Shown here: one piece after another, positions 1,869 to 24,998 of the stretch
Position numbering within the stretch: position 1 is the first letter of the stretch
Layout of the letters: every line of letters begins with the position of its first letter
Assembly (NCBI GenBank): GCA_019240525.1
Contig: JAFAYE010000001.1
Location: forward strand, 1,647,300 to 1,711,299
Source: Candidatus Eremiobacterota bacterium
GTDB lineage: Bacteria; Vulcanimicrobiota; Vulcanimicrobiia; Vulcanimicrobiales; Vulcanimicrobiaceae
Reading direction: 5' to 3'
Length of the DNA stretch: 64,000 bases
Translations under genes and position numbers: made by a program
The notes under the pieces: model-generated
Databases searched by the model: none
Told to the model about the DNA's origin: nothing
Seen by the model: only the letters and a program-made list of their open reading frames with translations

Positions 1869-1870
1869 GA

Positions 1871-2620: not shown

Positions 2621-2651
2621 TGTTCTTCCTTTCAAGAAAAGGGACGAAGAG

Positions 2652-4865: not shown

Positions 4866-4872
4866 CGAAGCT

Positions 4873-5580
4873 TTACTCGCTGGACTTGTAGGTCTGCTGG
4901 CTGTCCAGCCACGCGCGCAGGGTTGCGAACTTGACCAGGTCATTCTGTTGCTGCGTGGCGAGGTAGTCGAACTCGCCCTGCAACTGCGCCATCTGCAACT
5001 GACGCAGCTTCTCGAGCTGCTGCACTTCCTGAACGCCGATCATGTTGCCGACCTGCAGCGCCTGCATGTGCCCCACCGACCCGTCAGAGAGCCCTTGGAG
5101 CTGACTGAAGAGCGCGTCTTCGCTCTGGAATTGCGTGCTCTGCAGGTTTGCCGACTGCAACGCGCCCTGGATGCCGCCGAGCGAGTTGGTCGCCCACTGC
5201 GTATAGGCTTGCGTGTAGTTCGTCGGAACTTCGTAGCCGGGGTACATGTGCGTGAACTCGCTGCTCAAGTTCCCATCGGCATAGCTGATGCTCTGCCCGA
5301 CTTTGGCGACGCGGGTGAGGGCCTGAAGGTCTTCTTGGATCTGGCCCCAGATGCCGTTGGGAAAGTTGCGCAAACTTTGTACTTGATACTCTATTTGCTG
5401 GAGCTGGTTCGTGATTTGCGTTGCTTCATCGGTGACCATCTGCAACGTGTGGAGTTCGGTTAGGGCATTTTTAGCGAAGTTAGCTGCATCGTAGACAGCG
5501 ACTTGCGCGTGCGCCGGCTGTGCCGGCACGCAGAGAAGCGCTGCCGCCAGCGCGGCGGCGCGGACGAGATATCGGTTCAT
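4873..5580 (-). CDS. trbJ: TrbJ/VirB5-type conjugal transfer protein
   Basis: Secreted helical protein thought to sit at the pilus tip. The ATG at 5580 is preceded by AAAGGAG and starts a signal peptide (MNRYLVRAAALAAALLCVPA) ending in AHAQ. The mature part is Gln-rich and helical (QITNQLQQIEYQVQSLRNFP and LEKLRQLQMAQLQGEFDYLA), as in TrbJ. The Cys seen in IncP TrbJ is not obvious. Length about 235 residues. It sits between trbE and trbL, its standard position. Confidence 0.88.
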   Translation of the reverse strand: MNRYLVRAAALAAALLCVPAQPAHAQVAVYDAANFAKNALTELHTLQMVTDEATQITNQLQQIEYQVQSLRNFPNGIWGQIQEDLQALTRVAKVGQSISYADGNLSSEFTHMYPGYEVPTNYTQAYTQWATNSLGGIQGALQSANLQSTQFQSEDALFSQLQGLSDGSVGHMQALQVGNMIGVQEVQQLEKLRQLQMAQLQGEFDYLATQQQNDLVKFATLRAWLDSQQTYKSSE

Positions 5581-5590
5581 GGTTTCTCCT

Positions 5591-8077: not shown

Positions 8078-8388
8078 GGCATGCCCTCCCGCGCGGGCGA
8101 AACGCGCGCCGTCGCTCGCGACTGCGCAGAATAATAGGCACGATAACGGGTGTGGCGCAAATACACGCGGCTGAGCAGCGGATCATTCTTGGCTGCGCGT
8201 TGCAGCGTCGCGACTGTCAGCGCCCAGAAGACGACGCCGACAACTGCGAAGAGCGGCCGTTCGAGGCTCATCACCAGCACTGCGGTGATGATGGCGGAGA
8301 TGAGCACGAGTTCGCGCTCGGCGCCCATGAGTAGGATCGGACGAATCAACGAGACGTGAATCGGAATGGTGCGCGGTTGCTCGTTCAT
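8071..8388 (-). CDS. trbD: TrbD/VirB3-type inner-membrane protein
   Basis: 105 residues. The family start (TIPIHVSLIRPILLMGAEREL) is followed by a double hydrophobic segment at about 30-65, and a C-terminal amphipathic region with KNDPLLSRVYLRHTRYRAYY, the diagnostic TrbD/VirB3 motif. It works with TrbE and is fused to it in some systems. Starts inside the trbC stop (ATGA) and overlaps trbE at its end. Confidence 0.9.
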   Translation of the reverse strand: MNEQPRTIPIHVSLIRPILLMGAERELVLISAIITAVLVMSLERPLFAVVGVVFWALTVATLQRAAKNDPLLSRVYLRHTRYRAYYSAQSRATARVSPAREGMPC

Positions 8389-8708
8389 ATGACCGCTCCC
8401 GTCAACCCAAGCGCCGACAAGAAGTTGTTGCCGAGCACGAGGAACGCAATCGCGACGACGAGCAACAGCGCGCGCCGCACGAACGGTCCCATCTCTTCAC
8501 CGAAAACGAGCGCCGCGCCGGCGGCAAAGAGCGCCATCACCGAGACGGCGGTGGCGACAGGCCCGGTTAAGTCGTTCTGCAGCGTCTGCAATGGCGTATC
8601 CCACGGCAGACCGCCGCCGGTACTCGCCAGCGCCGACCTCAATGTGCTAAGCACGAACAGCGGAAACAAATACGCCGCGGTCTTTACCGCGGCGAGCATA
8701 CGATTCAT
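8385..8708 (-). CDS. trbC: TrbC/VirB2-type pilin
   Basis: 107-residue pilin precursor. It has an N-terminal signal-like hydrophobic stretch (AAYLFPLFVLSTLRSALAS), a processing region around STGGGLPWDTPLQ, then two membrane helices (VATAVSVMALFAAGAALVFG and ALLLVVAIAFLVLGNNFL), the TrbC/VirB2 fold. Gene order trbB-trbC-trbD and the 4-bp overlap with trbD support the call. Confidence 0.9.
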   Translation of the reverse strand: MNRMLAAVKTAAYLFPLFVLSTLRSALASTGGGLPWDTPLQTLQNDLTGPVATAVSVMALFAAGAALVFGEEMGPFVRRALLLVVAIAFLVLGNNFLSALGLTGAVI

Positions 8709-8736
8709 AAAGACTCCTCTTTGTTTTACTCGATGG

Positions 8737-9795
8737 TCATATAGCGATCAACTGGCGGCGAAGCTGCGGCGCATCCGCAGTCGCCGGATCGATACGGTCA
8801 AGCTCATAGCCCGATGCACGGACGCCGCGCACGCGTGCTATCTCGGTGATCTTTCGCCCGGTCGGCGTGCGAACGATCACGACGATCAAATCGACGGCTT
8901 CGGCGATGAGCGCCGGCTGCGGCGGTACGTTGGCTTCCTGCACGAGCTGCTCGAGCCGGATCAAACCGGCGTGCGCGTCGTTAGCATGGACGGTCGCAAT
9001 GCCGCCGGGGTGTCCGGTGTTCCAGGCCTTGAGCATAGCGAGCGCCTCCGCGCCACGCACCTCGCCGACGATGATCCGATCCGGACGTAAGCGCAGCGCC
9101 GTGCGAACGAGGCGCGTCATGTCCACAGTCTCAGTCGTGCGCAGCGTCACGCAGTTCGATACCGTGCAGCGCAGCTCGCGCGTCTCCTCGATCGTGAGTA
9201 CGCGCTGGCTCGTACCAACCATCGAGCTCATTTCGTGCAGCAACCCGTTCGCGAGCGTCGTCTTTCCACTTTGCGTCCCCCCGACGACCAGAATGTTCTG
9301 TCGCGCCCGGATCGCATGTCGCAAGGCGCCCGCGTGTCCATTCGACGGCGGGCGATCGAGGCTAATAACGTCTGCGTGCACGGGGCCGTCGAGAATGCCG
9401 TCACGCACGTAATCGTCGAGCGAATACACCAGTGCCGCGGCCTTGCGAATGCAGAACGCCGGTCCCAGCACCACCGGTGGGAGCAATCCGCAAAAACGGC
9501 TGCCGTCGAGCGACAACTCGCCTTCGAGGATTGGACATTCCGGTGTGATGACGCGGCCAAGCGTCGCCGCAACCGTGCCGAGAAGATTCTCGGCTTGCAC
9601 CGCTGAGATCCGCGTCCCGGTGTCGCGCATGCCGATTCCGAGCTCGTCGATCCAGAGGCGCCCGTCGGGATTGAGCATCACCTCGACGACCCGCGGTTCA
9701 GCGAGCGCGTCGAGCACGGCAGGACCGAGCTCGCGCCGGAGCTTTTCCTCCAACCTCACGTGCAGCTGGTCGTGCAAAGATAGCTGCTCAGGCAC
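8737..9795 (-). CDS. trbB: TrbB/VirB11-type conjugation ATPase
   Basis: About 352-residue hexameric ATPase of the type II/IV secretion superfamily. I chose a GTG at 9795 (protein starts VPEQLSLHDQL), which overlaps the traG stop by 8 bp; longer extensions are Arg-rich shadow translation. Motifs: MLNPDGRLWIDELG in the N-domain, Walker A VVGGTQSGKTTLANG, Asp box LTIEETREL, Walker B LRPDRIIVGEVRGAEAL, and the His box TGHPGGIATVHAN. All catalytic elements look intact. Confidence 0.95.
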   Translation of the reverse strand: MPEQLSLHDQLHVRLEEKLRRELGPAVLDALAEPRVVEVMLNPDGRLWIDELGIGMRDTGTRISAVQAENLLGTVAATLGRVITPECPILEGELSLDGSRFCGLLPPVVLGPAFCIRKAAALVYSLDDYVRDGILDGPVHADVISLDRPPSNGHAGALRHAIRARQNILVVGGTQSGKTTLANGLLHEMSSMVGTSQRVLTIEETRELRCTVSNCVTLRTTETVDMTRLVRTALRLRPDRIIVGEVRGAEALAMLKAWNTGHPGGIATVHANDAHAGLIRLEQLVQEANVPPQPALIAEAVDLIVVIVRTPTGRKITEIARVRGVRASGYELDRIDPATADAPQLRRQLIAI

Positions 9796-11668
9796 GGCGC
9801 ACCTCCGGCGGCGGGATCGACGCGCGCTGCGTAAATGTACGATCGCGGAAGTAAAGCGGCTGCACGCCGTAGATCGGTGGCTGCCCCGAGGCGAAGACGA
9901 GAAGATTTCCCGGCTCGACGATCTCGCCGGTCTCGGTCTTGCGGGCACCTGGCAGTCGCATCACCTCATCGGGCGTCAAGAGCGGGCGCTGCGTGTCATG
10001 TTCTGTGGTCATCGTATGTGGGAGCAGCGCACTGAGCCGGCTTCCCGAGTAATTCCGTATCGTGTGGCGCACCGTCATCGTGCCGCACATCTTGGAGAGC
10101 AACTCGGCGGTCGCGACGTCGTTGGCCGCCGATGCAATCCGTATCGCGCAGTTCGCGACGAGCGTCTTGCTCTTGGTGCCCCATGCCGTCTCAAGCTGGC
10201 TCAAATCTTGCGCGATGAGATAGAGCTTGATCCCGTAGCCCCGGCCAAGGCCAAGCGCGGTCGCTACGACATCGAGCGCGCCGATCTCCGCGACTTCTTC
10301 CAACATGATGAGGAAGCGCGGTTCAGTGACGTGTTCGTGTGTATCCATTAGCGCAAGCATGGTTTGCGTGAGGATCAAACGCGTGAGCGTGCGCAGCCGC
10401 TTCTTGTTCGCTGGCTGTACTACAAGGTAGAGACTGATGCGGCCGTCGTGCAGCTCCGTCAGGTCGAAGTCGCTGGATGAGATGTTCGCGGCGATCACCG
10501 GATCGCTGTAGAGGGTCAGGAAGCTCTGCGTCTCGGCGACGATATTCGCCTTGACGCGCCCCTCCATCGCAAGCATCTGGGTCGCAACCTGGGCGACGAG
10601 CGGATGTGTCGCCGTAGCCTGCCCCTTTGCGTCGACCCATCCGCGCGAATGCGACGGATCGTGGGCGTAGTCTCGCAGGTGATCGAACAGTTTGTCGAGA
10701 TCGTCGAAGCGCGGGTCCGAAAGGGTAGCGGCTACACCGGGAAGGGAATCGTTGCCCGGATCATCGTCGTGTTTGACGTGAAGGCTTAGGCCGAGCAGCA
10801 AGCGCTTCGCCATCTCGACCCAGAATCGATTGTCCCCACGCACGGGCTTCTCGCCCTCGTCGGCGACGAGCTCGACGATGTTCTGAATATCCTGGACCTC
10901 GTAGGGCGTGCCGATGCGAATGCGATCGAACGGATTAAGCCGGACGCTCGACCCGTCCGTTGCTGTCGGCTCGAACTTGAAGACGCGCTGCCCGAGACCG
11001 CCGCACTGGGTGCTCGTCGCGCGCCAGCCGGCAGTTCTGTGCCAGATTTCACCTTTGACGTCGTGAACGACCGCCGAGCGTTCCCACGAAAGCAGCGTCG
11101 GAATCACGAGGCCGACGGTTTTACCGGAGCCGGTCGGCATGAACGCCAGGCAATGCGTCGCGCTTGGATCACGCAGATACTTTGTCCGTTTCGATTGCGG
11201 ATCGCGCCATGCGCCGACGTAGACCCCGCGGTCGCGGCCGAGTAGACCGGTGGCGCGAATCTCTTCGAGTGAAGCCCAATGGGCCGAGCCATGGAGGTCC
11301 GAGTACCGTTGCAAGCGCCGGAGTCGGCCTACCGCCATCGAGGCCGCGGCGAACACCCCGAGCCCGTTGCCAAATAGTACGATTTCATACGCATGTAGGA
11401 ATACGTGATGGGTTGCAAGCCCAAAGCGCGAAGGATGATCGAACCTCACCGCCCAGGCGATGAATTGAAACGGCGAATAGATATGCTCGAATAGCGGCTT
11501 ACCGAGCGACGCTTGGTAGGCGAACGTCCGCGCGACGTGTTCGGTAGCTGCCCAGCATGACGCAGCGCCAAGCCAGACGACGATGCCAATCGATGGAAAA
11601 ATGACGGCCATCGGATCGCGGTCCCGTCGCGGCAGCGTGTAGAGATTGGGATGTGTCGATGCTTTCAT
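9788..11668 (-). CDS. traG: TraG/VirD4-type coupling protein
   Basis: About 626-residue T4CP that brings the relaxase-DNA complex to the channel. I chose the ATG at 11668, preceded by GGAAAGAGAA. The N-terminus carries two membrane segments (AVIFPSIGIVVWLGAASC and a second near YEIVLFGNGLGVFAAASM). The Walker A is FMPTGSGKTVGLVIPTLLSW. The Walker B region reads FLIMLEEVAEIGALDVV, with Glu where many VirD4 proteins have Asp. First gene of the trb operon seen here, and its relaxase partner is at 22.2 kb. Confidence 0.94.
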   Translation of the reverse strand: MKASTHPNLYTLPRRDRDPMAVIFPSIGIVVWLGAASCWAATEHVARTFAYQASLGKPLFEHIYSPFQFIAWAVRFDHPSRFGLATHHVFLHAYEIVLFGNGLGVFAAASMAVGRLRRLQRYSDLHGSAHWASLEEIRATGLLGRDRGVYVGAWRDPQSKRTKYLRDPSATHCLAFMPTGSGKTVGLVIPTLLSWERSAVVHDVKGEIWHRTAGWRATSTQCGGLGQRVFKFEPTATDGSSVRLNPFDRIRIGTPYEVQDIQNIVELVADEGEKPVRGDNRFWVEMAKRLLLGLSLHVKHDDDPGNDSLPGVAATLSDPRFDDLDKLFDHLRDYAHDPSHSRGWVDAKGQATATHPLVAQVATQMLAMEGRVKANIVAETQSFLTLYSDPVIAANISSSDFDLTELHDGRISLYLVVQPANKKRLRTLTRLILTQTMLALMDTHEHVTEPRFLIMLEEVAEIGALDVVATALGLGRGYGIKLYLIAQDLSQLETAWGTKSKTLVANCAIRIASAANDVATAELLSKMCGTMTVRHTIRNYSGSRLSALLPHTMTTEHDTQRPLLTPDEVMRLPGARKTETGEIVEPGNLLVFASGQPPIYGVQPLYFRDRTFTQRASIPPPEVRRA

Positions 11669-12590
11669 TTCTCTTTCCGAGCAAAATGTGGCTAAAAAAA
11701 GAAAAGCCCCGAAACCGCTCGATTTCAGAAGCTTTACATACGCATTATTATGCGGACGAAAGTCGCGTGTGCTCTTACACGCCAATTATGCCGCAGAGCT
11801 TCGCCGACGTCAACTGGCAGCTGCGGTCGTCTGCGGCGGGTCGTCCTGCGGCGATCCTGTGCTGTAAGTCGGCAGCGGTCGAGGAGGCCGTCGTTGCTGA
11901 GCGCGCGCAGGCAAACCCTAGAACCTGAGAAACTACCGAGGACTCGCGCGTGATCTAGGCCCTAGATGGAGGACATCGCCGCATCACTTAGTCCAGTACA
12001 TTGATCACCTGAAGCGCGTCCGAAAAGTTGGCCGCTCAACTCCGTGCCGCACCTTACGGTGGTTTATCACTAGCACCAGAAGAACGCCGATCGACCCACC
12101 CGCAGCCCGTTCTAAAAGATCCTGAGCCACAGGCGCGCTTACGCAGACCTTCAAAAACTTCATTCAGCAGCTACACTCGTTAAAGCGCCGAATAGTTGCT
12201 CCAGTCTCGAGGGTCAAACGTCGCGAGCGAACACGCCTTCACGTCACGAACATTGGATTTAGCATAGGCCCAGACGATGCGAACGGAAACCGGTACTGCG
12301 GTCCGTGATTCCGATAAGTTATTGTTGCCAAGTGAGATCGCAATGCTTTTGTTACCATTGACAGTTACTACCAGAAGCGGCAAAGAATCGAATGAAGATA
12401 GCCTCGATAGTGTATCTAGCGAGCGTGCGACTTGTGGCAGTGATGGCCTCTAGCGGCATCGCAATCTGGCATCTCGTCGTCACGTCGTCGATTGCGAGTA
12501 TCGTGATCGCATCGTGGGGCGTTGCCTCCTTGAAGCCTGGCGTTGGAGTCTAGTTCCTCAACTCGCTTGGGGTTAGGCGGACGAAACGAT
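11669..12590. other. Intergenic region upstream of traG
   Basis: No convincing gene. A 14-bp inverted repeat (CGCAT-tatt-ATGCG) lies at 11741-11754, about 75 bp upstream of the traG start, and could be an operator or part of the operon promoter region. A 67-codon minus-strand frame (12180-12383) and a 53-codon hydrophobic plus-strand frame (12392-12553, beginning MKIASIVYLASVRL) are open but lack ribosome sites and recognisable motifs, so I do not call them. Confidence 0.5.
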
Positions 12591-12926: not shown

Positions 12927-14485
12927 CAGGCACCTTCTCCAGCGGTCGGCGCGGGCATTTTAGTCGGCGGACCTTGCCGATTGCGGAATTCCCTGGCGAT
13001 GAGAATGCGGTAAGGCTTCGAAAGCCGGTCCGATGCGTACGGTGCGATGGCTGCAAGGCGCGTCGCGAAGCGCTCGTCATAAAAGTTGATTGCCATCAAG
13101 GGAAACGACTTCGTGAACCCCGTCGCATCGACGAGCAATTCGCATACGATTTTGTTGCCGCGCATCGCCGCAAAGCGCCAGAAGAAACGGGGCTGCTGTT
13201 CCGTCAGGAGGTATTCGAGTCGCCTGCGCGCGAGCGTGCGCGCTTTACGAATCTGCTTTTTGTAGTCGTTGGTTGTCGTCAAATGCGCGTCCCATTCCAA
13301 CTCGCCGTAGTCAAGGGCGCGCGCAATCACCTGAATGGGCAGGTTGATTCGGTTCACCCAATCGAGAGCCTTCAGATACGGCAGACGTATCTTCTGGTAG
13401 ACGGGGATAACGATCTGCGTTGGCGTGAGCCGGCGAGCCGTGCCGTCGTCGCGTTTCCACTTGCCCTCGAAGTACGGCAACTCGTGGTCGCAAGTTGGCG
13501 CGAAAAACAGCAACCGTGAAAACGGCCCTTGCTGGTCGTCGTGCGCGTAAAACTCGTCGATGCGCCGCCCGATTAGCGGTGGGGCGTTGCCGTACGGCGA
13601 TTCGTTCGCGTGGATCGGCTGCTCCCTCAGAGAGTAGCCGGATATGGTGACGGCGTGCTGGCCCAACTCTTCCACCTGCATAATCAGCAGCACCGGAAGT
13701 CCCATGCGAACATGCGCGTAGATCAGCGAAGCGACCGGAGCTTCGGCGCACGCGGCCGCGCCGTACACTTCGGGATCGAGTCCGTTTTGGCGGATCGCGC
13801 TGCAGATCTGCTCGACGTACAGGTAGCTAGACGGCAGCGCGCGCTGGTCGAAGAACGACATCGTCGCGTCCATCGTGATCTTGGGTGGACGAGGAGCCGG
13901 CGTCCCGAAAAGCCGCGACGTTTTCTGGAAACACGACCATAGCGCGACCGTCGCACACGCCGCCAGTGCCTGGTCCTGTTCCTGGAACGCCAGGCTGCGC
14001 ACACGCAGCGAAACGCCGAAAAGGTGCACGTCGTAGTCGACCAGCGCGTCGTAGTGACGTCGGCCGTGATCGTCGCCATATGTCTTCAATTGCGTGCGGC
14101 CGATGATCGCGTCCGGCAACGGTTTGATGACGATAAAACCGAGGTACGTTTTCCGCAGTCGGCGTACGTGTTTGGGTTTGGCTTCGCCAGCGATGATCGC
14201 TTCGAACTGCGCACGCGGAACGTATTCCGAGAAGAAATGCAGTCGCTTGCAATATCGTTCGTACGGCGTGTGACAGCTGACGTAATACGACGCGAAGTCC
14301 TGAAGAAAATCGCCGTCGACGTAATCGTGTTCGACGACGATCATCTTGGCGTCGAGTTCATCGTTGTTGAGATAGCCGAACAGGTAATCGACGTGCGCGT
14401 CGGTCGCCGCAGAGTCAGCGGGGAATTCGCGGGTCCCTACGGCTGCGTTGAAATTCTTGCGGTCGAACTCGTAATGATCAAGCAC
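12926..14485 (-). CDS. Large hypothetical protein with C39-like cysteine-protease signature
   Basis: 519 residues from a GTG start. The middle shows the order expected of a papain/C39-like peptidase: Gln and Cys in QEQDQALAACATVALW (about residues 168-183), a His in QHAVTISGY (about 278-286), and an Asp in YAHDDQQGPF (about 315-324). N- and C-terminal regions are unrecognised; the C-terminus contains ATGFTKSFPLMAINFYDE. No membrane segment. It is flanked by a 77-residue upstream gene and a coupled 111-residue downstream gene, on a presumed conjugative element, which fits a defence or conflict cargo operon. The catalytic triad is inferred from motifs, not proven. Confidence 0.72.
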   Translation of the reverse strand: MLDHYEFDRKNFNAAVGTREFPADSAATDAHVDYLFGYLNNDELDAKMIVVEHDYVDGDFLQDFASYYVSCHTPYERYCKRLHFFSEYVPRAQFEAIIAGEAKPKHVRRLRKTYLGFIVIKPLPDAIIGRTQLKTYGDDHGRRHYDALVDYDVHLFGVSLRVRSLAFQEQDQALAACATVALWSCFQKTSRLFGTPAPRPPKITMDATMSFFDQRALPSSYLYVEQICSAIRQNGLDPEVYGAAACAEAPVASLIYAHVRMGLPVLLIMQVEELGQHAVTISGYSLREQPIHANESPYGNAPPLIGRRIDEFYAHDDQQGPFSRLLFFAPTCDHELPYFEGKWKRDDGTARRLTPTQIVIPVYQKIRLPYLKALDWVNRINLPIQVIARALDYGELEWDAHLTTTNDYKKQIRKARTLARRRLEYLLTEQQPRFFWRFAAMRGNKIVCELLVDATGFTKSFPLMAINFYDERFATRLAAIAPYASDRLSKPYRILIAREFRNRQGPPTKMPAPTAGEGA

Positions 14486-16123: not shown

Positions 16124-16714
16124 TTACGGGCCTCGCAGCGGAACGACGGTTTTGGGAAGATCGCTTTCCGGATCGTGTGGGTCCAACTTGGCACCGCTAT
16201 GCTCTTGCAGGTGATCGATGAAGACGACCAGGTTGGGCTCAATGTCTTTTTCGCCGAATTTGCTCGGAAACTTGATTGCAGGGATTCCCAGACTGTAGGT
16301 GACTTGTCCCAATCGGATGGTCGGAGGATCGACGTCCAGCAGCCATGATCCCGTCAGTTCCTGCATCGACGTTCCCAGCGCCCCGTGGTTTGACGGATCT
16401 GTCAAGTCCAGGATTCCGATGGGAATCTCGACGTGGACGCACGTGATGATCTGTGGCGCTCGAGGCGCCATCATGTATTTCCCGCCAACCGCGGCCAACG
16501 ATCCGACCTCGGCCAACGCGACGATCGGCGACTTGGCGAAATAGAGCGCCGGCGCTTTTCCCGCGCGATGGTACCGTCCATCGGAAACCGCCGAACCGGC
16601 CGCGCTCAGGAGCGTTTTACGCCATTTGTACAGCGAGACGTTTGTCCACGTCTCGCTGCACGTGGCAAGTCTTATTTTGGGGAGCGCGGCACGCAGCTCA
16701 GCCTCATCGTGCAA
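16124..16714 (-). CDS. RES-domain toxin (NAD-degrading type)
   Basis: 196 residues from a TTG start 5 bp after the antitoxin stop. The RES pattern is visible: Arg in YKWRKTLLSAAG, then DGRYHRAGKAPALYFAKSP and IVALAEVGSL with the conserved Glu. RES toxins studied so far degrade NAD+. It lies directly downstream of an MbcA/ParS/Xre-type antitoxin, the usual arrangement. A 10-bp perfect inverted repeat (CAGCGAGACG and its complement, 8-bp loop) sits inside the gene at 16631-16658. Confidence 0.85.
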   Translation of the reverse strand: MHDEAELRAALPKIRLATCSETWTNVSLYKWRKTLLSAAGSAVSDGRYHRAGKAPALYFAKSPIVALAEVGSLAAVGGKYMMAPRAPQIITCVHVEIPIGILDLTDPSNHGALGTSMQELTGSWLLDVDPPTIRLGQVTYSLGIPAIKFPSKFGEKDIEPNLVVFIDHLQEHSGAKLDPHDPESDLPKTVVPLRGP

Positions 16715-16719
16715 ATCGA

Positions 16720-17037
16720 CTAGCCAAACTGCAGGCCTTTGAGCGCTTTTTCGACGCGCTCGAGCACGTCAATGCGTCCGTCCTTAAAGAACTCGATCGG
16801 GCGTTCGTCGTCCAGACCGTGGTTTTCGGTTTTGAGCCACGCTTTAAGCGTTTCTTCGCCGCCGAGCTCATGTTCGAGACCTCGCCGGACGCGTTCGCTG
16901 CGCTCGACGAAATCAGCGAGACTGATCGGCTGCTTTTCGATCGCGTTGTGAACGACGCGTTCGTCGACGTCGAAGCCCAGCGCCACCCGTTTCAGCAACG
17001 CGGCGTCGTAAATCTCTCGTTTTCCCTTGCCTGGCAC
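16720..17037 (-). CDS. MbcA/ParS/Xre-like antitoxin (toxin-binding domain)
   Basis: 105 residues. The C-terminal half matches the toxin-binding domain (DUF2384-like): EETLKAWLKTENHGLDDERP then IEFFKDGRIDVLERVEKAL. The N-terminus (MPGKGKREIYDAALL) has no clear HTH, unlike most RES antitoxins, which carry one. A separate XRE gene sits immediately upstream (11-bp gap), so DNA binding may have been split into its own subunit. Confidence 0.82.
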   Translation of the reverse strand: MPGKGKREIYDAALLKRVALGFDVDERVVHNAIEKQPISLADFVERSERVRRGLEHELGGEETLKAWLKTENHGLDDERPIEFFKDGRIDVLERVEKALKGLQFG

Positions 17038-17048
17038 TTCGATCTCCT

Positions 17049-17402
17049 TTATGATGTTCGCTCGTCGACGGTACGCCTGCGCGACTGCGCGCGACGAAAC
17101 TCTGCGTATCGTTTCACTTCCTCGATCTCGGCCGGATCAAGCAGGCGCGCGATGTCGATCAGACGCTGGAGCGTTGCTTCCGAGTTGGCGCTGTTCTGCG
17201 GAATCAGCGCTCCGATGTCGAGGTCCAGGGCCGCCGCGATCTTGCCCAGGTCGTCGAGCCTGGGCTTGTATGTGCCGGTCTCCCAACGTGAAACGGTGTT
17301 AGGGGCGACTCCAAGCTTGGTTGCCAACTCCTGTTGTGACAAGCTTCGACCTTCACGTTCGGCCTTGAGTCTGTGGGCGATCTGTTCGGAAATGGACACC
17401 AT
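17049..17402 (-). CDS. XRE-family regulator of the RES and ubiquitin-like operons
   Basis: 117 residues starting MVSISEQIAHRLKAERE. The HTH at about 18-50 reads LSQQELATKLGVAPNTVSRWE, with LDDLGKIAAALDLDIGALIP next. Residues 75-117 form a basic helical tail with LLDPAEIEEVKRYAEF. I chose the ATG at 17402 because a promoter -10 (TAGAAT) ends only 4 bp before it, suggesting a leaderless or near-leaderless transcript. It is the first gene of the XRE-antitoxin-toxin operon and faces two matching palindromes in the divergent promoter region. Confidence 0.88.
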   Translation of the reverse strand: MVSISEQIAHRLKAEREGRSLSQQELATKLGVAPNTVSRWETGTYKPRLDDLGKIAAALDLDIGALIPQNSANSEATLQRLIDIARLLDPAEIEEVKRYAEFRRAQSRRRTVDERTS

Positions 17403-17406
17403 GGCT

Positions 17407-17435
17407 ATTCTACGCCGAGCGTAGACCTTTGTCCA
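17407..17435 (-). promoter_or_regulatory. Minus-strand promoter of the XRE-antitoxin-RES operon
   Basis: Read on the minus strand: TGGACA (17435-17430), a 17-bp spacer, then TAGAAT (17412-17407), four bases before the ATG of the XRE gene. Five of six matches in each box. The first palindromic operator covers its spacer and -10. Confidence 0.7.
17409..17425. promoter_or_regulatory. Operator 1: 17-bp palindrome TCTACGC-cga-GCGTAGA
   Basis: Perfect inverted repeat with 7-bp arms and a 3-bp centre, lying over the -10 region of the leftward promoter. The same arms recur at 17487-17503 with a different centre (tag), which is the mark of a specific protein-binding site. The XRE protein encoded next to it is the obvious candidate. 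Confidence 0.85.
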
Positions 17436-17442
17436 GTCAGCG

Positions 17443-17471
17443 TTGACACCGTTTGGACGGTGTGTTATCCT
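17443..17471 (+). promoter_or_regulatory. Plus-strand promoter of the ubiquitin-like operon
   Basis: TTGACA (17443-17448), a 17-bp spacer, TATCCT (17466-17471). Predicted start of transcription near 17478. Its -35 is only 7 bp from the -35 of the divergent leftward promoter. Confidence 0.8.
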
Positions 17472-17486
17472 AAGCACGGATGTAGC

Positions 17487-17503
17487 TCTACGCTAGGCGT
17501 AGA
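17487..17503. promoter_or_regulatory. Operator 2: 17-bp palindrome TCTACGC-tag-GCGTAGA
   Basis: Same 7-bp arms as operator 1. It lies about 10 bp downstream of the predicted transcription start of the ubiquitin-like operon, a position where a bound repressor would block elongation or promoter escape. Centre-to-centre distance to operator 1 is 78 bp. Confidence 0.85.
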
Positions 17504-17528: not shown

Positions 17529-17978
17529 ATGGAGCCCAAGGAATCTGCCGGGCGCGAATCCGGCGCAAAGATCTGGATCGACGACGTCGAGCACGTCGTG
17601 GACGTCCTCGAACTCTCCGGCAAGCAGCTCAAGGAGCTTGCGGGCAAGAACGGAGGTGCGCGTCTGTTCCTCGCGCAGGCTGAAACGCGCGACCTCGCCA
17701 TCGCGGACGACGAGATCGTTCAGATCAACGGCGGCGAACAGTTCCGCACGACGAAGATCCGCAAGGCCTATCAGATCTACATCGACGAGGTCGAGTACGT
17801 CGTCGAAACGGAAAAGATGACCGGCACGCAGATCAAGCAGCTCGCGGGAAAACCTGCCGACTACACTCTGTTCCTCGAGAGGCCGGGCCAACCCGACAAG
17901 CAGATCCGCGACGACGAAGTCGTCCATATAAAGGAGGGCGAGCACTTCCATACGGTGCCGCCGGCGAACTTTGGATAG
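17529..17978 (+). CDS. Two-repeat multi-ubiquitin (ubiquitin-like) protein
   Basis: 149 residues made of two similar beta-grasp repeats, about 14-74 and 80-144. Compare KIWIDDVEHVVDVLELSGKQ with YQIYIDEVEYVVETEKMTGT, KELAGKNGGARLFL with KQLAGKPADYTLFL, and DDEIVQINGGEQFRT with DDEVVHIKEGEHFHT. This matches the multi-ubiquitin domain family found beside bacterial E1/E2/JAMM genes. The protein ends in a free Gly (PPANFG), as expected for a conjugatable modifier that needs little or no trimming. The ATG at 17529 lies after AAAGGT. The E2-like gene starts within 5 bp of the stop. Confidence 0.9.
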   Translation: MEPKESAGRESGAKIWIDDVEHVVDVLELSGKQLKELAGKNGGARLFLAQAETRDLAIADDEIVQINGGEQFRTTKIRKAYQIYIDEVEYVVETEKMTGTQIKQLAGKPADYTLFLERPGQPDKQIRDDEVVHIKEGEHFHTVPPANFG

Positions 17979-17982
17979 AACT

Positions 17983-18360
17983 GTGTCGCGCAGTCTCGCG
18001 GAAAAATGTGTCGATGATTTCATCGCAAGACATCCGGAGGCGAAAGTGCATCGCCTGCAAAACGGCGACTTCAGCGTTTGCGTGCCCGGCGTGGCGCTGA
18101 CCGGGTGGTCGAAACCGCAGAGCGCCGTCGCGTTCGTCGTGCCCGCCGGATTTCCGGTGCAGCGGCCTGATTGCTTCTGGACCGACGGAGATCTCACGCT
18201 ACAAAGTGGAGCGGCGCCCGCGAACTCGCAGATGAGCCAGCCGCATCCGGTACATCCCGGAATGCGCTGGTTTTCCTATCATCCGAATATTTGGGACGTG
18301 CGCGACACGGTGGAAACATATTGGCATCTAATCCAAGGACGTCTGCTGCAGGCGCGATGA
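17983..18360 (+). CDS. Prokaryotic E2-like protein (family E type)
   Basis: 125 residues from GTG 17983 (a TTG at 17971, overlapping the previous stop, is the alternative). It resembles the E2/UBC-fold proteins that accompany multi-ubiquitin genes: VVPAGFPVQRPDCFW aligns with the E2 FPxxPP strand region, and the C-terminal FSYHPNIWDVRDTVETYWHL carries the family's Trp/His pattern. No Cys follows an HPN box as in eukaryotic E2; the Cys residues are at about 9, 33 and 64. Whether one is catalytic is unclear. It ends in an ATGA overlap with the E1 gene. Confidence 0.82.
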   Translation: MSRSLAEKCVDDFIARHPEAKVHRLQNGDFSVCVPGVALTGWSKPQSAVAFVVPAGFPVQRPDCFWTDGDLTLQSGAAPANSQMSQPHPVHPGMRWFSYHPNIWDVRDTVETYWHLIQGRLLQAR

Positions 18361-20015
18361 AAACGCTCGTTATCCCCGCGAACCTTGCGCAGGAGTTGCG
18401 CAAGCTGTTCGAGGCCGCGCCGCTGGAAAGCGGCGGCGTGTTGTACTGTCGCGAAGCGTGCGGTCTGAATGATGTCAAGCTGCTCGGCGTCGAATTTTCG
18501 CCATACGAGGAAGACGAATATCGCAAACGCACGGCGGAATCCCTGACCGTCGATCCCGTCGCCGTGAACGAACGCATTCAGCGAGCGAACCGAGACGGTC
18601 TTTCGATCGTGCAGGTGCACACGCACCCGGCTTCCGAGCAAGCGACGTTTTCGTCGGTGGATGCGGCGGGCGAAGACGAGATGATGCCGGTGATCGCTCG
18701 GCGTTTGCCGGATCGGGTCCACGCGACACTGGTGCTTGGGCGATCGTCGTCGTCCGTCCGCTTTTACGACCGCGAACTGAATAGGAACGACGGCCGAATC
18801 GTTTCAGTCGGCGCGAAAATCGAGCGTCTCGACCACCTTCGAGTGGGTACGATCGATCGCTTCGTACGGTCGTACCTGGCGCTGGGCAAAGGCGGCCAGG
18901 CCGCGCTGCAGGACATGACGATCGGCGTCGTCGGCCTGGGAGGGCTCGGGTCGGTCGTCGCCGAGCAGCTGTCATATCTGGGCGTCGAACGCGTGGTGCT
19001 GATCGATCCCGATCACGTCGAAGAGAGCAACTTGAATCGCGTCGTCGGCGCGGTTCCCTCCGACGTTCGACGCAATAAAGTCGAAGTCGCCGCTGCGCGT
19101 TACCGTTCCGTGCTTCCGTCGGCGACGGTCGACATGGTCGTCGGATCGATCATCGACGAGCGCGTTGCTCGCGCGATCGTCGATTGCGATCTCGCTTTTT
19201 GTTGCACCGACGGACACGGGAGCCGGGCCGTGCTGAGTTGGCTGGCCTACCAATACCTGGTTCCCGTCGTCGACGTGGGCGTGCAGATCGACGTGTTCGA
19301 CGAAACGGTCGCCGCGATCGCGGGGCGCGTGCAGCTGGTCGGGCCGGGAATGCCTTGTCTGCACTGCTGCGAATCGCTCGACGCCAACCGCGTTCGCGAA
19401 GAATTCATGACCGAAGAAGAACGTGCGCGCGACGCATACGTCACGGGCGCAGCCGTCGCGCAGCCGGCCGTCGTGACGTTCAATAGCGTGGCGGCTTCGT
19501 TGGCGACGACTATGCTGCTCGGCCTTGCAACGCCGCTTCGCCTGGCGGCTCGCATGCAGACGTTTAACGCGATGACGGGCCAAGTTCGACCTGCGGAAGC
19601 AACGCCGAAGGACGGCTGTCCGTTCTGCTCCGCAAGTTCGGCTGTTTTCGGCCTGGGCGACTCCTTGCCGGGTATCTGGAGAAAAGATGTCGGACTGACG
19701 GTGTCGCGCTACCGCTTCGTTTCGTTCGGGCCGGTCAAGCGAGTCGTGACGCAAACTGACGCACAAGCTCACGCTTGTACCGGCGGTATCGGCCTCGTGA
19801 TGGCCGGTAAACTGCCGAAGATGGCTGTGTTCGCCTGTCCGGACGGCTGCGGACAGACGCTCAAGATCAACCTCATGCGACAGATGGGGCGGGCGTGGAC
19901 CGCGAGCGTGGACCGGATCGGTCGTCTGACGCTTTCGCCGTCGGTTGACCTGAGCGGCGGCTGCCGAGCGCATTTCATTCTGGGAAGCAACGTCGCACGG
20001 GTGATTTATGCGTAA
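18357..20015 (+). CDS. JAMM deubiquitinase - ThiF/E1 fusion with C-terminal Cys/His-rich (DUF6527-like) domain
   Basis: 552 residues in one frame. About 1-140 is a JAB/JAMM isopeptidase: Glu24 in ESGG, then HTHPASEQATFSSVD (His88, His90, Ser99, Asp102), the full metal-binding set. About 160-430 is a ThiF/E1 adenylation domain: GLGGLGS (193-199), DPDHVEESNLNR (218-229), Lys241, Asp285, and two CxxC pairs (334/337 and 421/424) that fit a structural zinc. About 445-552 is a third domain with ACPDGCGQTLKINL, LTLSPSV and GCRAHF, resembling DUF6527, a small domain usually separate in such operons. No clear E1 catalytic Cys was located. It overlaps the E2 gene by 4 bp. Confidence 0.88.
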   Translation: MKTLVIPANLAQELRKLFEAAPLESGGVLYCREACGLNDVKLLGVEFSPYEEDEYRKRTAESLTVDPVAVNERIQRANRDGLSIVQVHTHPASEQATFSSVDAAGEDEMMPVIARRLPDRVHATLVLGRSSSSVRFYDRELNRNDGRIVSVGAKIERLDHLRVGTIDRFVRSYLALGKGGQAALQDMTIGVVGLGGLGSVVAEQLSYLGVERVVLIDPDHVEESNLNRVVGAVPSDVRRNKVEVAAARYRSVLPSATVDMVVGSIIDERVARAIVDCDLAFCCTDGHGSRAVLSWLAYQYLVPVVDVGVQIDVFDETVAAIAGRVQLVGPGMPCLHCCESLDANRVREEFMTEEERARDAYVTGAAVAQPAVVTFNSVAASLATTMLLGLATPLRLAARMQTFNAMTGQVRPAEATPKDGCPFCSASSAVFGLGDSLPGIWRKDVGLTVSRYRFVSFGPVKRVVTQTDAQAHACTGGIGLVMAGKLPKMAVFACPDGCGQTLKINLMRQMGRAWTASVDRIGRLTLSPSVDLSGGCRAHFILGSNVARVIYA

Positions 20016-20097
20016 AGGCGACAGGCTTTGGCCGATTTGCGGTAAAAGCACGGGACAGAACCTTCTGGTTCGTTACCGTCGCCGGAGAGAACCCATC

Positions 20098-20271
20098 ATG
20101 GCTTCAGAAGAGCGCAACCGCCTGACTACCGAAGACGTTCTCACGGACCTCAAGAGGCGCGGAATCGATGTGCGCGACCTTGGCTTGCGCCGGGTGTCGC
20201 TTTCTGTCGACACTGACCAACGGCTGAACGCTGCCGAAGACCGCATAAAAAAATTGCTGCGTCGCGATTAA
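20098..20271 (+). CDS. Small hypothetical protein ending the ubiquitin-like operon
   Basis: 57 residues starting MASEERNRLTTEDVLTDLK, after GGAGAG at good spacing. An upstream in-frame ATG at 20008 that overlaps the E1 stop would give 87 residues. The sequence is charged and helical, with RRGIDVRDLGLRRVSLSVD in the middle. No family recognised. Its stop overlaps the stop of the convergent Ntn-hydrolase gene by a few bases. It may be an accessory factor or a substrate of the operon; this is speculation. Confidence 0.65.
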   Translation: MASEERNRLTTEDVLTDLKRRGIDVRDLGLRRVSLSVDTDQRLNAAEDRIKKLLRRD

Positions 20272-21380
20272 CTCTTGCCCGGCTCTTCGCGGCCATTGAC
20301 CGCCGTGTCAGGCGAAGCTTCCGTCGAATTCTCCGGGGGCTTAATGCCGAACAGTTCCATGAGTTCGGTGATCTTGGTTTTGTCAAGTTGATTGCTCGTC
20401 GGACCCATCATCTGACGGAAGGCGTGACCCATCATTTCGCGCATCCATTCGCGCTCGTCGTTCATGACGGCTTTTTCTCGCGCGTAAGCCATCTTCTTGA
20501 GAAAACCTTTGCGACGGTACCAGTGGAGACCGTCAGGCTGTATCGCGACCACGTCGAGCTTTCCGCCGACGGCGGGATTGCCGGTGCAAAACCGATCGTA
20601 TCCGATGGCGGCTTGTCCCAGGTAATCCGCGAATTTCACGGCCTCTTGCAACGGCATTCCGCGAAGTCGCGCAGGCATCGCCATCAGCGGACCCACCGAA
20701 AGGATTCGGTCGAGGAATTCCTCGTCTTCGGGTGACGGCTCTGCGTGCAGTTGCTCCAGCAACGCGTTCAGTTCCTTGCGGGAGACTTCGCTGGGATCGC
20801 GTCCCATATCGATCAACCGTTTGGTGAGACGCCGAATCTCCAGCGCGCCGATCAGTTCACGCATGTCGATCCCGTAGTAGAGCCGATCAAGCGCGCAGCA
20901 CTTGCCCCAGTAGTCGATCCGCTCCTCGCCAGTCGGTTTCCCTTGCGTGCTCGGAATCACCATCCGCAACGATTTTTTCGCGAAGTTCAGTTCGTACAAT
21001 TCGGGAAAGAAGCATCCCGGCGAATATCCGCCGACGATTACGCCCAGGTCGGGCCACTTTTCAGGATGGGCTTGATCGTATTTCTCGCCGATGAACGCAT
21101 ACAGATTCGAAGCCAACGCCGAGACCGGCCACGCGCGGATCGGCGCCGCAGGTTCTTGATACTGGTGAAATTCGAACTCGCGGATGAGGCTGATGATCGT
21201 TCGATTGTCGATCTCCCCGAGCCCATTGATCATGACAGCGATGGGTCGCGCGCGAATCTCCGTGATCTTCTCGACGCTCTGGTGAATCGAGTCGACATCG
21301 CCACCTGCGCTGATCTGAGACAGACTGTCTGCAGCCATCACGAGGCCTTCATTTACCGAGATGGCGATGTTGATCGTCAT
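20268..21380 (-). CDS. Proteasome-beta/HslV-like Ntn hydrolase, convergent to the ubiquitin-like operon
   Basis: 370 residues, ATG 21380 after AAGGAAT. The N-terminus MTINIAISVNEGLVMAADS has proteasome-like layout. If Met is removed, Thr1 is the nucleophile, Asp falls at position 17 and Lys at about 37 (VEKITEI), with VMINGLGEIDN in place of the Gly47 strand turn. The ~180-residue core is followed by a long helical C-terminal region (EWMREMMGHAFRQMMG) ending in a flexible acidic tail, longer than HslV or Anbu. Gene placement, tail-to-tail with a modifier/E1/E2/deubiquitinase operon, suggests a linked peptidase. Activity is inferred. Confidence 0.75.
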   Translation of the reverse strand: MTINIAISVNEGLVMAADSLSQISAGGDVDSIHQSVEKITEIRARPIAVMINGLGEIDNRTIISLIREFEFHQYQEPAAPIRAWPVSALASNLYAFIGEKYDQAHPEKWPDLGVIVGGYSPGCFFPELYELNFAKKSLRMVIPSTQGKPTGEERIDYWGKCCALDRLYYGIDMRELIGALEIRRLTKRLIDMGRDPSEVSRKELNALLEQLHAEPSPEDEEFLDRILSVGPLMAMPARLRGMPLQEAVKFADYLGQAAIGYDRFCTGNPAVGGKLDVVAIQPDGLHWYRRKGFLKKMAYAREKAVMNDEREWMREMMGHAFRQMMGPTSNQLDKTKITELMELFGIKPPENSTEASPDTAVNGREEPGKS

Positions 21381-21715
21381 AGGTATTCCTTGCGCAAATA
21401 GCGCGAGATCGCAAAAACTGTCGGCCTTCGGCCGAGTGGGCGACCTATTCGGGATCGGATGACTGATTCCAGTCCTTAAGCGAAGGCCGGGCGGAATGGA
21501 ATGCGCGAGGCCCGTCACCGCTGCAAACCTTCGGCGGCAGTGCTATTTCCCGGCTGGCGAACCGCCTGTGAAACGACGCCGGGCGGACCGGTCGAGAGCA
21601 TTAGGCCGCCAGTTAGATGCGTAGGTCTCCAACCATACTCTTAGCCGAAGAAGCTTGAGGCTTCGGAAATAGTCGGCTACGAAGGACGCAGCACTCTCGA
21701 TGCTCCAGGCCGCCG
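21381..21715. other. Intergenic region
   Basis: No gene seen. It contains short GC-rich inverted repeats (for example around GGCCTTCGGCC near 21421) and would carry the promoter of the leftward Ntn-hydrolase gene, which I could not pinpoint. Confidence 0.4.
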
Positions 21716-22227: not shown

Positions 22228-24666
22228 CTACTTCGATATTGTTTCGCGTGTTCGATCACGATCGCGGTGATCACGTCTGATGGCGGACTTGACATCGCGC
22301 CTTAACGTATCCGGAAGAGCTTGGTACTCCTGACTAATCGCGGCCGCAAGTGAACTTAGCGCTGAGGTATGGTCGTAAGGCACGATCGTCGAGACACCGG
22401 AACGCTCGAGCACATCGACTTGGTGTTCTATTCTCGGGATCCGGTCCCTTAGCTCAGTGCGAGCATCCCGCATTTGCTGTTCGAGGCCAAGGGACGCCGA
22501 CACGTATGCTCGATAGCAACGGTCGTCGTCCGCTACACGCTTGGCGATCTGGGAAACGTCGCGCTCCTCAAAGCGGCGCGTGGCTTCTGCAATTCCCAGA
22601 TTCTGGCGCGACTGATGCGCCGCGCGGATTAACGTTTCGGCCTTGGCGGCTGCGGCGCGCGTAAACGGATTCCAGGAGTGTTTCTCGGCGTCAAGCTGTG
22701 CCAGCCGCGTGCGCTCTGCATCGGTCAGCCTCGTGGGTTCGAAGGCGCCTCGCTCGATGCGGGCGCGTTCCGCTGCCACGGCCTCGTTCGCCAGCGGCTT
22801 TGCAACTCGGGGAAGCCTACTGCGCTCGGCGCGGGCATGTTCGTACCGTGCCTCTTGCTCGGCTCGGATCACGTTGAGGCGTGCACGCACTTCGGCGAGA
22901 CTCAGCGTGCGCGCAATGTCCGCATCGCGCTGGCGCCGACCGGCTGACGCCAGGAGTGTGTCAAGCACGCGCTGAGCGGCTTGATCGCCGGCGCGAGCTT
23001 TCTCGGCGGCAAATCCTCGGTAGTCCATAGGCTTCTCCTTACGCGCCAGCCCACGCTCCGCTGCCAGCACGATTTTGGTCGATTCCCACCGGACGCGCGC
23101 CGCGTCGCACTCGTGCGCGCGTCGGCGAGCGATGACTGCGTCGATCGACCAATAGGCGATCTGTCGAGCAACTAGACTGTGGACACCTAGTCGCGCTACT
23201 GCACGCAACAGTTGGCGCGCTTCGCGGCAGCGCAGTGCTTCGAGCCGTCGCTGCGCGTGCTCGCGCTCCCATGCTGCCGTTCGACGATCCTCGGCTGCCC
23301 GATTCTTGTCGCCGAAGAATCGGTCACGGTACGCTGCGTATGCAGCACGCGTGCTCGCGTGATTTACGATGCGACTGGCTTCGTGCAGCGCCCAACGCGG
23401 ATCGTTGTTTGCCTCTGTTTCGGCACGGTTGCGGATCGCGCGATTACGCGACCGCACTCGATCCTGGACGGCGCCGTGGGATTGCTGCTGTCGTTGCGGC
23501 TCGGTATCGGGAAAGGGGCCGAACCGCTGCTCAAGTGCTGACTTCTTGCAGCGCGGGGCGATGCGCGACGCGCCGCACCCCTGCGCATCGGGATGCTGCC
23601 CTTGCGCGAAGGCGAGACCTTGTACACGACCGCCGCGCTCGACGAGCTTGACGACGATGCCATGCTGATCGAGTCGCTGTCGCAGCTCATCCCATGAGCG
23701 CGCCGTATCGACGCCTGCGAGAATCGTTAGACGGACGGCATCACTCCATGGCACGCCGCGCGCTACGCCGGGATCTGACTCGTGCGAGGGCGTGAATGGC
23801 CCGAAGCGGCGTTCGAGCGCGGAGAGTGCGCAGCGTGGATGGATGCGTGACGCCGCGCATCCGGGCGCTGTGCGATCGAAGCCTTCCGCGAATGCGAGAC
23901 CCTGCACGCGGTCACCACGGCGGACGAGTTTCACGATGACGCCCTCCGCGCGAAGACGCTCGCGCAGATCGTTCCAGGTGCGCGCGCCGTCGACGGCATC
24001 AAGAACGTAGGGCCGTGCCGCGTCCTGCCACGGCAGCTCACCGTCCTTGTGCAGGCGGCGGTACACGCCATCGCTCAGCCCGCGTTCCGGCTCGGGCGGA
24101 AGATCGTGAAGCCGCTCGATCCGCTGGATGATGTCGCGGTTGTGGTGGCCGACAACGATGTCCCAGCCGCGCTCGGCAGCAATCTCCGCGCAGGTACGCT
24201 CGCGAAGGATCCGCTCGTGCCAGAGGTCGTTGGCGCGGCCGTCCGCGCCGACACGGTTCGCGATCACATGCGCGTGGAAGTCGTCGGTGTCCTTATGGGC
24301 GGCCAGGACGTACTGATGGTCGTCCATCCCAATCGCCTTCAGCAACCGCTCCGCATCGCTGACGACCTGATCGCGCGTGGGATGTTCGTGCTTTGCGTAG
24401 GCGATAATGAGGTGATAGACCGGATCGCGACAGCGCGCCGAGAGCGCGGCGACCGCCTCCATCTCGATCGCCGCCGTTTCCACCGACATCACTCCGCGAA
24501 GATGAACCCATGCTGCCTTCTCGGGAGCGCTCGCGTACGTGACGCCACCCTCGAAGGTCACGCCCGCAGCGGCCACGGCACGTTGGTGCGTATGCTCCGT
24601 GATGTAGTCGACGCCGACGGCGAAGGTCCGGGTGTGGGCGCGGGCCGCGACGGATTTCGTAATCAT
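22228..24666 (-). CDS. Relaxase / mobilization nuclease with duplicated middle domain
   Basis: 812-residue relaxase that nicks oriT and pilots the strand into the T4SS. The N-terminal domain has a candidate catalytic Tyr21 (VDYITE) and the three-His motif HKDTDDFHAH (His124, His131, His133). Residues about 211-291 and 304-385 are two copies of one module, each with PW-D-A-R, GxxxKLVxRGxRVQGLAFA, CxASRIxPRC and LExRFGPF. The remainder is a long charged helical region, possibly primase- or helicase-like remnant, without Walker motifs. I chose ATG 24666, which overlaps the mobC-like stop (ATGA). Confidence 0.88.
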   Translation of the reverse strand: MITKSVAARAHTRTFAVGVDYITEHTHQRAVAAAGVTFEGGVTYASAPEKAAWVHLRGVMSVETAAIEMEAVAALSARCRDPVYHLIIAYAKHEHPTRDQVVSDAERLLKAIGMDDHQYVLAAHKDTDDFHAHVIANRVGADGRANDLWHERILRERTCAEIAAERGWDIVVGHHNRDIIQRIERLHDLPPEPERGLSDGVYRRLHKDGELPWQDAARPYVLDAVDGARTWNDLRERLRAEGVIVKLVRRGDRVQGLAFAEGFDRTAPGCAASRIHPRCALSALERRFGPFTPSHESDPGVARGVPWSDAVRLTILAGVDTARSWDELRQRLDQHGIVVKLVERGGRVQGLAFAQGQHPDAQGCGASRIAPRCKKSALEQRFGPFPDTEPQRQQQSHGAVQDRVRSRNRAIRNRAETEANNDPRWALHEASRIVNHASTRAAYAAYRDRFFGDKNRAAEDRRTAAWEREHAQRRLEALRCREARQLLRAVARLGVHSLVARQIAYWSIDAVIARRRAHECDAARVRWESTKIVLAAERGLARKEKPMDYRGFAAEKARAGDQAAQRVLDTLLASAGRRQRDADIARTLSLAEVRARLNVIRAEQEARYEHARAERSRLPRVAKPLANEAVAAERARIERGAFEPTRLTDAERTRLAQLDAEKHSWNPFTRAAAAKAETLIRAAHQSRQNLGIAEATRRFEERDVSQIAKRVADDDRCYRAYVSASLGLEQQMRDARTELRDRIPRIEHQVDVLERSGVSTIVPYDHTSALSSLAAAISQEYQALPDTLRRDVKSAIRRDHRDRDRTRETISK
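23512..24036 (-). repeat. Tandem duplication inside the relaxase gene
   Basis: Two adjacent modules of about 81 codons (24036-23794 and 23757-23512) encode similar protein segments, for example VKLVRRGDRVQGLAFAEG versus VKLVERGGRVQGLAFAQG. The copies differ at many positions, so the duplication is old. Confidence 0.8.
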
Positions 24667-24998
24667 CGCGTGATCCCGCCGACCACCGTTCGTAATTGGT
24701 CGAGGCAAGCGCGAAGCTCGTCCTGCGGGATCGTCCCGTTCGCCCGTCCGTAGGCCTGAAGTTGATGGAGATCGGCAGCGATCGCGCTCAGCTGCCGAAC
24801 TGTGCCCGCGGTGTCGTCCGCCACCATCGGCCGCCTCACACGGCGCTGCCGTCCACTGCCACGGAATACCGCTTTCCGCACAAAGTCCGCAAGCGTTAGT
24901 CGGCGAGCACGCGCAACGGAAGCCAGGTGTGCCGCCTCTTCAGGCGTGAGGCGGATCCAGAGCCGTTTCGTACGCACGGCTCGCCGAGTCGCGTTCAT
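24663..24998 (-). CDS. MobC-like relaxosome accessory protein
   Basis: 111 residues. The N-terminal RHH-like part (TKRLWIRLTPEEAAHLASVA then LTLADFVRKAVFRG) and the C-terminal RQLSAIAADLHQLQAYGRAN match the MobC/TraJ-like layout. It is expected to bind oriT beside the relaxase. It overlaps the relaxase start by 4 bp and follows a candidate oriT and promoter upstream. Confidence 0.85.
   Translation of the reverse strand: MNATRRAVRTKRLWIRLTPEEAAHLASVARARRLTLADFVRKAVFRGSGRQRRVRRPMVADDTAGTVRQLSAIAADLHQLQAYGRANGTIPQDELRACLDQLRTVVGGITR

Follow-up and report, generated by a model that had tools for sequence, protein, structure and literature searches.

A Bub-type ubiquitin-like conjugation operon on a predicted conjugative element of Eremiobacterota, with the DUF6527 domain probably fused to the JAMM-E1 enzyme

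The DNA analysed here, a stretch of 64,000 nucleotides (the window; contig 1, 1,647,300-1,711,299) from the 2.8-Mb genome of a soil-dwelling member of the Eremiobacterota, carries at positions 17529-20271 an operon of four genes in the same direction, which encode a ubiquitin-like protein (UBL), an E2-like protein, a JAMM-ThiF/E1-DUF6527 protein and a 57-aa protein. All open reading frames listed for this locus in a preliminary description of the sequence are present, and the HMM searches proposed there matched Multi_ubiq, Prok-E2_E, Prok-JAB, ThiF and DUF6527, with the UBL, the E2 and the domains of the fusion all scoring above the curated Pfam cut-offs. The closest homologous locus (L031; 59% identical, hereafter the sister locus) comes from a 'Candidatus Eremiobacterota' MAG from palsa soil and matches a genome of the same genus (G016). 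The features of the operon are as follows.

17529-17978, plus strand: BubA, two-repeat ubiquitin-like protein, 149 aa (PF14452 Multi_ubiq, E 2.7e-17, two stretches)
17971-18360, plus strand: BubB, Prok-E2_E/RWD-like protein, 129 aa, with S102-x-H104 (PF14462, E 5.3e-6)
18357-20015, plus strand: BubCD-BubE fusion, 552 aa, a single frame with JAMM, ThiF and DUF6527 in that order
18390-18743, plus strand: JAMM/Prok-JAB domain (PF14464, E 4.9e-6; E24, H88, H90, S99 and D102 intact)
18873-19622, plus strand: ThiF/E1 adenylation domain (PF00899, E 6.5e-39)
19683-19703, plus strand: fusion junction, from comparison with the sister (A4 run at 19683-19686, in-frame GTG at 19701)
19818-19994, plus strand: DUF6527 (BubE) domain (PF20137, E 2.1e-12; Zn ligands C494, C498, C536 and H539)
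20098-20271, plus strand: 57-aa accessory protein, conserved beside the sister operon (38% identity, E about 1e-31)

The overlap of genes that had been described for the operon holds for the first three, with the TTG start of the E2 gene embedded in the stop codon of the UBL gene (8-nt overlap) and the fusion gene overlapping the E2 gene by ATGA, but not for the fourth, which starts 82 nt after the fusion gene. Divergence from the sister by codon position is coding-like in every gene, that is, third > first > second, with first and second positions about equal in the UBL gene. BubA ends in VPPANFG, with Gly as its last residue, and a tail of the form VP(P/K)A(N/T/S)FG is common to nearly all relatives; the Gly is followed by 0-4 residues, often at least one, in one-repeat relatives and mostly by none in two- and three-repeat ones. 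Since the terminal Gly is already exposed, BubA needs no processing. The protein thus agrees with Bub (type 6e) systems, whose Ubl has one to three beta-grasp repeats and a Gly end, either encoded or exposed by processing, and is the two-repeat, Gly-terminated ubiquitin-like protein that had been proposed; the outcome named in advance as fatal to that proposal, no significant match to a ubiquitin-like fold, is not what was found.

The second protein is E2-like, as first described, based on its match to PF14462, but it is not a classical E2, given that the canonical catalytic Cys is absent, which is also how the E2/RWD-like proteins of Bub (type 6e) operons are made. In an alignment of 63 such E2 proteins, two rows of which are one column off at the S-x-H motif, the only near-invariant Cys is C68 (in DCFW), just after the YP motif and before the expected catalytic position, while all 63 have S-x-H roughly where the catalytic residue would be expected from W-x-P, in a region that is itself conserved in the family. 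Because a conserved catalytic Cys is missing, Ser102 of S-x-H is our candidate acceptor, which would carry the ubiquitin-like protein as an ester. Bub systems may use oxyester intermediates, which we take as a lead only.

In the 552-residue protein, the three parts that had been proposed, i.e., an intact JAMM deubiquitinase, a ThiF/E1 domain and a third, Cys/His-rich domain, were all recovered. The JAMM motif (E24, H88-x-H90, S99-x2-D102) lies at the N-terminus with its catalytic residues intact, as is typical of Bub (type 6e) enzymes, and H88, H90, S99 and D102 are invariant among 28 aligned sequences; a JAMM-E1 fusion is the norm among Bub relatives. The nucleotide-binding residues of the E1 are kept, and C334/C337/C421/C424, which are near-invariant, likely form a Zn site as in MoeB/ThiF-type E1s. 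No invariant Cys was found in the E1 crossover loop of the aligned relatives, the only invariant Cys of the E1 being C283, in the CTD motif. The closest solved structures by sequence are those of Citrobacter BubCD (E 1.4e-34). The structure prediction suggested in the preliminary description succeeded in part: the full-length model is confident to about residue 444, but residues 445-552 are of low confidence and the placement of DUF6527 is not given by it.

The lack of a conserved Cys both at the active-site position of the E2 and in the crossover loop of the E1 could mean that the operon encodes a deconjugase or binding module, in which the Ubl is adenylated but not transferred, and this E2 family has indeed been called catalytically inactive (Iyer 2006, PMC1779556). 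We consider such a reading quite unlikely, as the strong conservation of S-x-H, W-x-P and the Ubl tail across phyla suggests that transfer chemistry has been kept. It is also highly improbable that the operon is a Bil-type (ISG15-like) antiphage operon, an assignment for which the weak similarity of BubA to solved BilA (E 1e-4; other multi-ubiquitin proteins are weakly similar as well) could be cited. In Bil operons, the JAMM protein (BilC) is encoded separately, and BilB contains a Cys and a CEHH motif (PMC11354881). In the window, by contrast, JAMM and E1 form one protein, the E2 has no such Cys, a DUF6527 domain is encoded, and BubCD gives the best full-length match. Among the PADLOC defence models, the E1 domain alone matches (E1-E2 models), and the UBL, the E2 and the small protein were without a match to these models.

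DUF6527 is a normal Bub component that usually has its own gene. Its residues C494, C498, C536 and H539, in the pattern C-x3-C...C-x2-H, are invariant over 47 sequences, and the domain's own model is confident (pLDDT 89.6). A search of the PDB with this model returned no clear relative (best Foldseek E 1.0). SH2 domains were considered as relatives and rejected (best VIA Z 3.7, below noise). In both the window and the sister, the near-invariant D of NLD and W of PSVW are lost (the window reads NLM and PSVD), and the role of the domain could therefore have drifted; the segment is still under protein-level constraint, judged from codon-position divergence relative to the sister. The operon thus has the Cys/His DUF6527 partner of Bub (type 6e) systems in fused form and has no stand-alone DUF6527 protein, a variant trait by which the pathway is not defined.

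To place this arrangement, 57 loci (one genome per species) and plasmid loci were surveyed, with UBL, E2, E1, phosphotransferase and DUF6527 mapped in all frames. This neighbourhood survey, also proposed in the preliminary description, returned the usual Bub gene order, UBL-E2-JAMM/E1-DUF6527, in many cases with a phosphotransferase-like gene inserted ahead of DUF6527. DUF6527 was its own open reading frame in 59 of the 59 other independent loci that have both genes and was fused to the E1 in the window only; hence the fusion with the C-terminal domain is as unusual as had been supposed. A broader search for DUF6527 covered about 850 genomes, namely 149 from the phylum itself, some 300 from a family centred on Sphingobium, some 400 from an order centred on Rhizobium, and four others, and, among its roughly 100 matches, none besides the window's lies in an open frame longer than 333 aa. 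The survey also revealed that more than half of the Bub operons (L032-L087) have a phosphotransferase-like gene separating BubCD from DUF6527 and that two loci (L058, L084) have two tandem DUF6527 genes. In four other Eremiobacterota operons (L134, L135, L136 and L137; L136 with Ubl repeats), DUF6527 comes after an E1-like protein of a different kind, and these apparently represent another subtype.

In the sister, BubCD ends directly behind the IWRK motif that the window has as well, with DUF6527 in another frame. Fused versus split comes down to one base in the A4 run; the GTG at 19701 is probably the former start codon of bubE. Accordingly, the operon might in reality be split, with bubCD and bubE two genes as in relatives and the fusion a sequencing or assembly indel. 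The single deciding base, the fact that the split form would end BubCD almost where the sister's ends, and the uniqueness of the fused state among the 59 comparable loci and the roughly 100 DUF6527 matches are all in line with an indel. On the other hand, when 400 kb of this genome was compared with 1.9 Mb from two relatives, 0 frameshifts were found in 89 homologous genes (93 kb); six suspects from a first screen were discarded by filtering, five because of stop codons inside the matched region and one because it read as an antisense shadow. The corresponding 95% upper bound is about 3 frameshifts per 100 kb, and the stretch that matters is roughly 40 bp long, which makes an error there improbable. 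The assembly is, in addition, a single contig of 2.79 Mb with open reading frames of normal length, and A4 is a short homopolymer. Taken together, an assembly artefact joining separate genes, the second outcome that had been named as fatal, is not indicated, and we regard it as unlikely.

The small fourth gene noted in the preliminary description is present as a 57-aa open reading frame and, given its conservation beside the operon of the sister, probably represents a genuine gene; it is kept in the sister locus only. Its convergent neighbour (20268-21386, minus strand) encodes a product that starts with MTINIAISVNEGLVMAADS, followed by VEKITEI and GGKLDVVAIQPDG, has no Pfam or PDB sequence match, and looks like a divergent N-terminal-Thr (proteasome/Anbu-like) hydrolase. 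It was considered as a degradation partner of the operon and rejected: its weak relatives, found in two or three further Eremiobacterota genomes and in none of the plasmids, phages and viral contigs, are on fragments without a Bub operon, and we therefore treat it as an unrelated neighbour. On the other side of the operon, a 519-aa protein without a Pfam match (12929-14485, minus strand) contains CATVALW and GQHAVTISGY, which suggest a papain/C39-like peptidase.

Upstream of BubA lies a conserved control region, bordered by a divergent regulator gene and a toxin-antitoxin-like gene pair.

16124-16714, minus strand: RES-domain protein, putative NAD-consuming toxin of a RES-Xre pair (PF08808, E 1.3e-9; gene kept in the sister)
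16720-17037, minus strand: Xre/MbcA/ParS-type antitoxin (PF09722, E 7.2e-7; conserved in the sister)
17049-17402, minus strand: XRE-family HTH regulator, divergent from the operon (HTH_3, E 6.8e-17; 66% identical to the sister's)
17407-17435, minus strand: predicted regulator promoter, sigma-70-like, TGGACA-17-TAGAAT (hexamers and spacing identical in the sister)
17409-17425, strandless: predicted operator 1, TCTACGC-N3-GCGTAGA, overlapping the regulator's -10
17443-17471, plus strand: predicted operon promoter, sigma-70-like, TTGACA-17-TATCCT, with TG before the -10 (hexamers and spacing identical in the sister)
17487-17503, strandless: predicted operator 2, TCTACGC-N3-GCGTAGA, shortly past the predicted start point of the operon

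Exactly two sigma-70-like promoters lie between the XRE gene and the operon, one per direction. The 15-bp core of the palindrome occurs exactly twice in the 2.8-Mb genome, both times in this control region; the two copies are 78 bp apart, and the same arrangement and spacing are found in the sister, where the copies are less perfect. These patterns argue strongly, at the sequence level, for a repressor-operator module private to the operon, with the divergent XRE protein as the likely repressor of the operon, and such a module would provide a simple handle on the signal that switches an operon of this kind on. About 5 nt separate the end of the regulator's predicted -10 from the ATG (17400-17412), and the regulator mRNA may thus be leaderless; the sister regulator has a similar layout of -10 and ATG. 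At the sister locus, the RES-Xre pair is followed by an integrase-like gene (identified by eye). A divergent RES-Xre pair is also found directly beside a Mesorhizobium Bub operon (L013, 3006-4096, minus strand). With this lineage and Mesorhizobium being the only two independent cases of RES-Xre next to Bub, we do not claim a functional tie.

Farther out, type IV secretion genes (VirB2, 3, 4, 8, 9 and 10, a coupling protein and a transglycosylase) lie on one flank, and a MobP-type relaxase and a NikA-like protein on the other, with the mobility genes at 1-11785 and 22231-24998 (both minus strand). With secretion genes on one flank and the relaxase on the other, the operon is read as cargo of a conjugative element.

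Based on these data, the operon is of the Bub type (type 6e): every defining trait that was tested is present, with the DUF6527 fusion as the one variant trait, and the preliminary assignment to the known multi-ubiquitin/E2/E1/JAMM operons can be narrowed to this class. Our preferred reading, to which we assign a probability of about 0.7, is that of a Bub-type, conjugation-like operon on a conjugative element, in which the normally separate bubE has been fused to bubCD and which would work as follows. The XRE protein would keep the operon off through the two palindromes around the divergent promoters. On its release, the two-repeat Ubl would be made with its Gly exposed, as can be read directly from the gene; the E1 domain, judging from its intact ThiF motifs, would adenylate the Ubl C-terminus; and the Ubl would then pass to the E2-like protein, probably as a Ser102 ester, and on to target proteins, which is the least certain step and is suggested by the position of the motif. 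The JAMM domain, with its catalytic residues intact, would cleave the conjugates. Finally, the zinc-binding DUF6527 would act on this complex too, most likely serving for docking or for presenting the substrate or the E2; being fused would hold it in a one-to-one ratio with the E1-JAMM core. By the gene-fusion argument, a natural in-frame fusion to E1-JAMM counts as evidence that DUF6527 works on that enzyme, an argument that is thin given that the fusion was seen once. A role for DUF6527 was not found in the literature that could be consulted. A bolder version, in which DUF6527 is a new type of zinc-binding domain, E3-like or E2-presenting, with a direct action on E1-JAMM, and the fusion an undescribed single-polypeptide enzyme for activation, targeting and removal, is possible but seems doubtful to us. 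In any case, the fusion offers one polypeptide for testing the role of DUF6527 and a hint that its three domains cooperate.

The pathway and the JAMM-E1 fusion are already known, as the operon type was described in 2006 (type 6e) and 544 Bub operons have been counted in a 2026 paper, according to which they have not been shown to protect against phage (PMC13373217); the new part is the C-terminal DUF6527 fusion, and the distribution of Bub operons now includes the Eremiobacterota and, within them, a conjugative element. Of the related systems, type 6a/6A-MBL and type II CBASS E2-E1(-JAB) share with the window multi-domain E1 fusions, some with JAB, but in another order and with another partner (E2-E1-JAB), whereas the window fusion is without an E2 domain. 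Bil (BilABCD) likewise has a two-repeat Ubl, E1, E2-fold and JAMM components, but with a separate JAMM, a Cys-active E2 and no DUF6527. Type 6e, by description, comprises a Ubl protein with one, two or three repeats, an RWD-like E2 that lacks the Cys, a JAB domain at the E1 N-terminus and an additional protein with the signature C-x3-C-x35-38-H-x2-C (PMC1779556); the window operon has the polyUbl, the RWD-like E2, the JAB-E1 and the small Cys/His protein in common with it, the last being a separate gene in the description and fused here. The window spacing fits this signature (C-x3-C-x37), with the last pair being C-x2-H, as in 47 of 47 aligned DUF6527 sequences. Finally, the Bub system itself (Citrobacter BubCD, 9ea4, 9ea5 and 9eav) is like the window operon in its Ubl repeats, Cys-less E2-like protein, JAMM-E1, DUF6527 partner and gene order, while the window differs in having DUF6527 joined to the JAMM-E1 C-terminus, a host among the Eremiobacterota and an extra 57-aa gene. 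In Citrobacter koseri, no separate E2 is annotated between the 1.1-kb multi-ubiquitin gene and the E1, and the E1 is without the Zn cysteines, whereas the window has a separate E2 gene and a Zn-type E1. Further, unlike Citrobacter Bub, no CapK/CapS genes adjoin the window operon, which has its private predicted XRE repressor instead.
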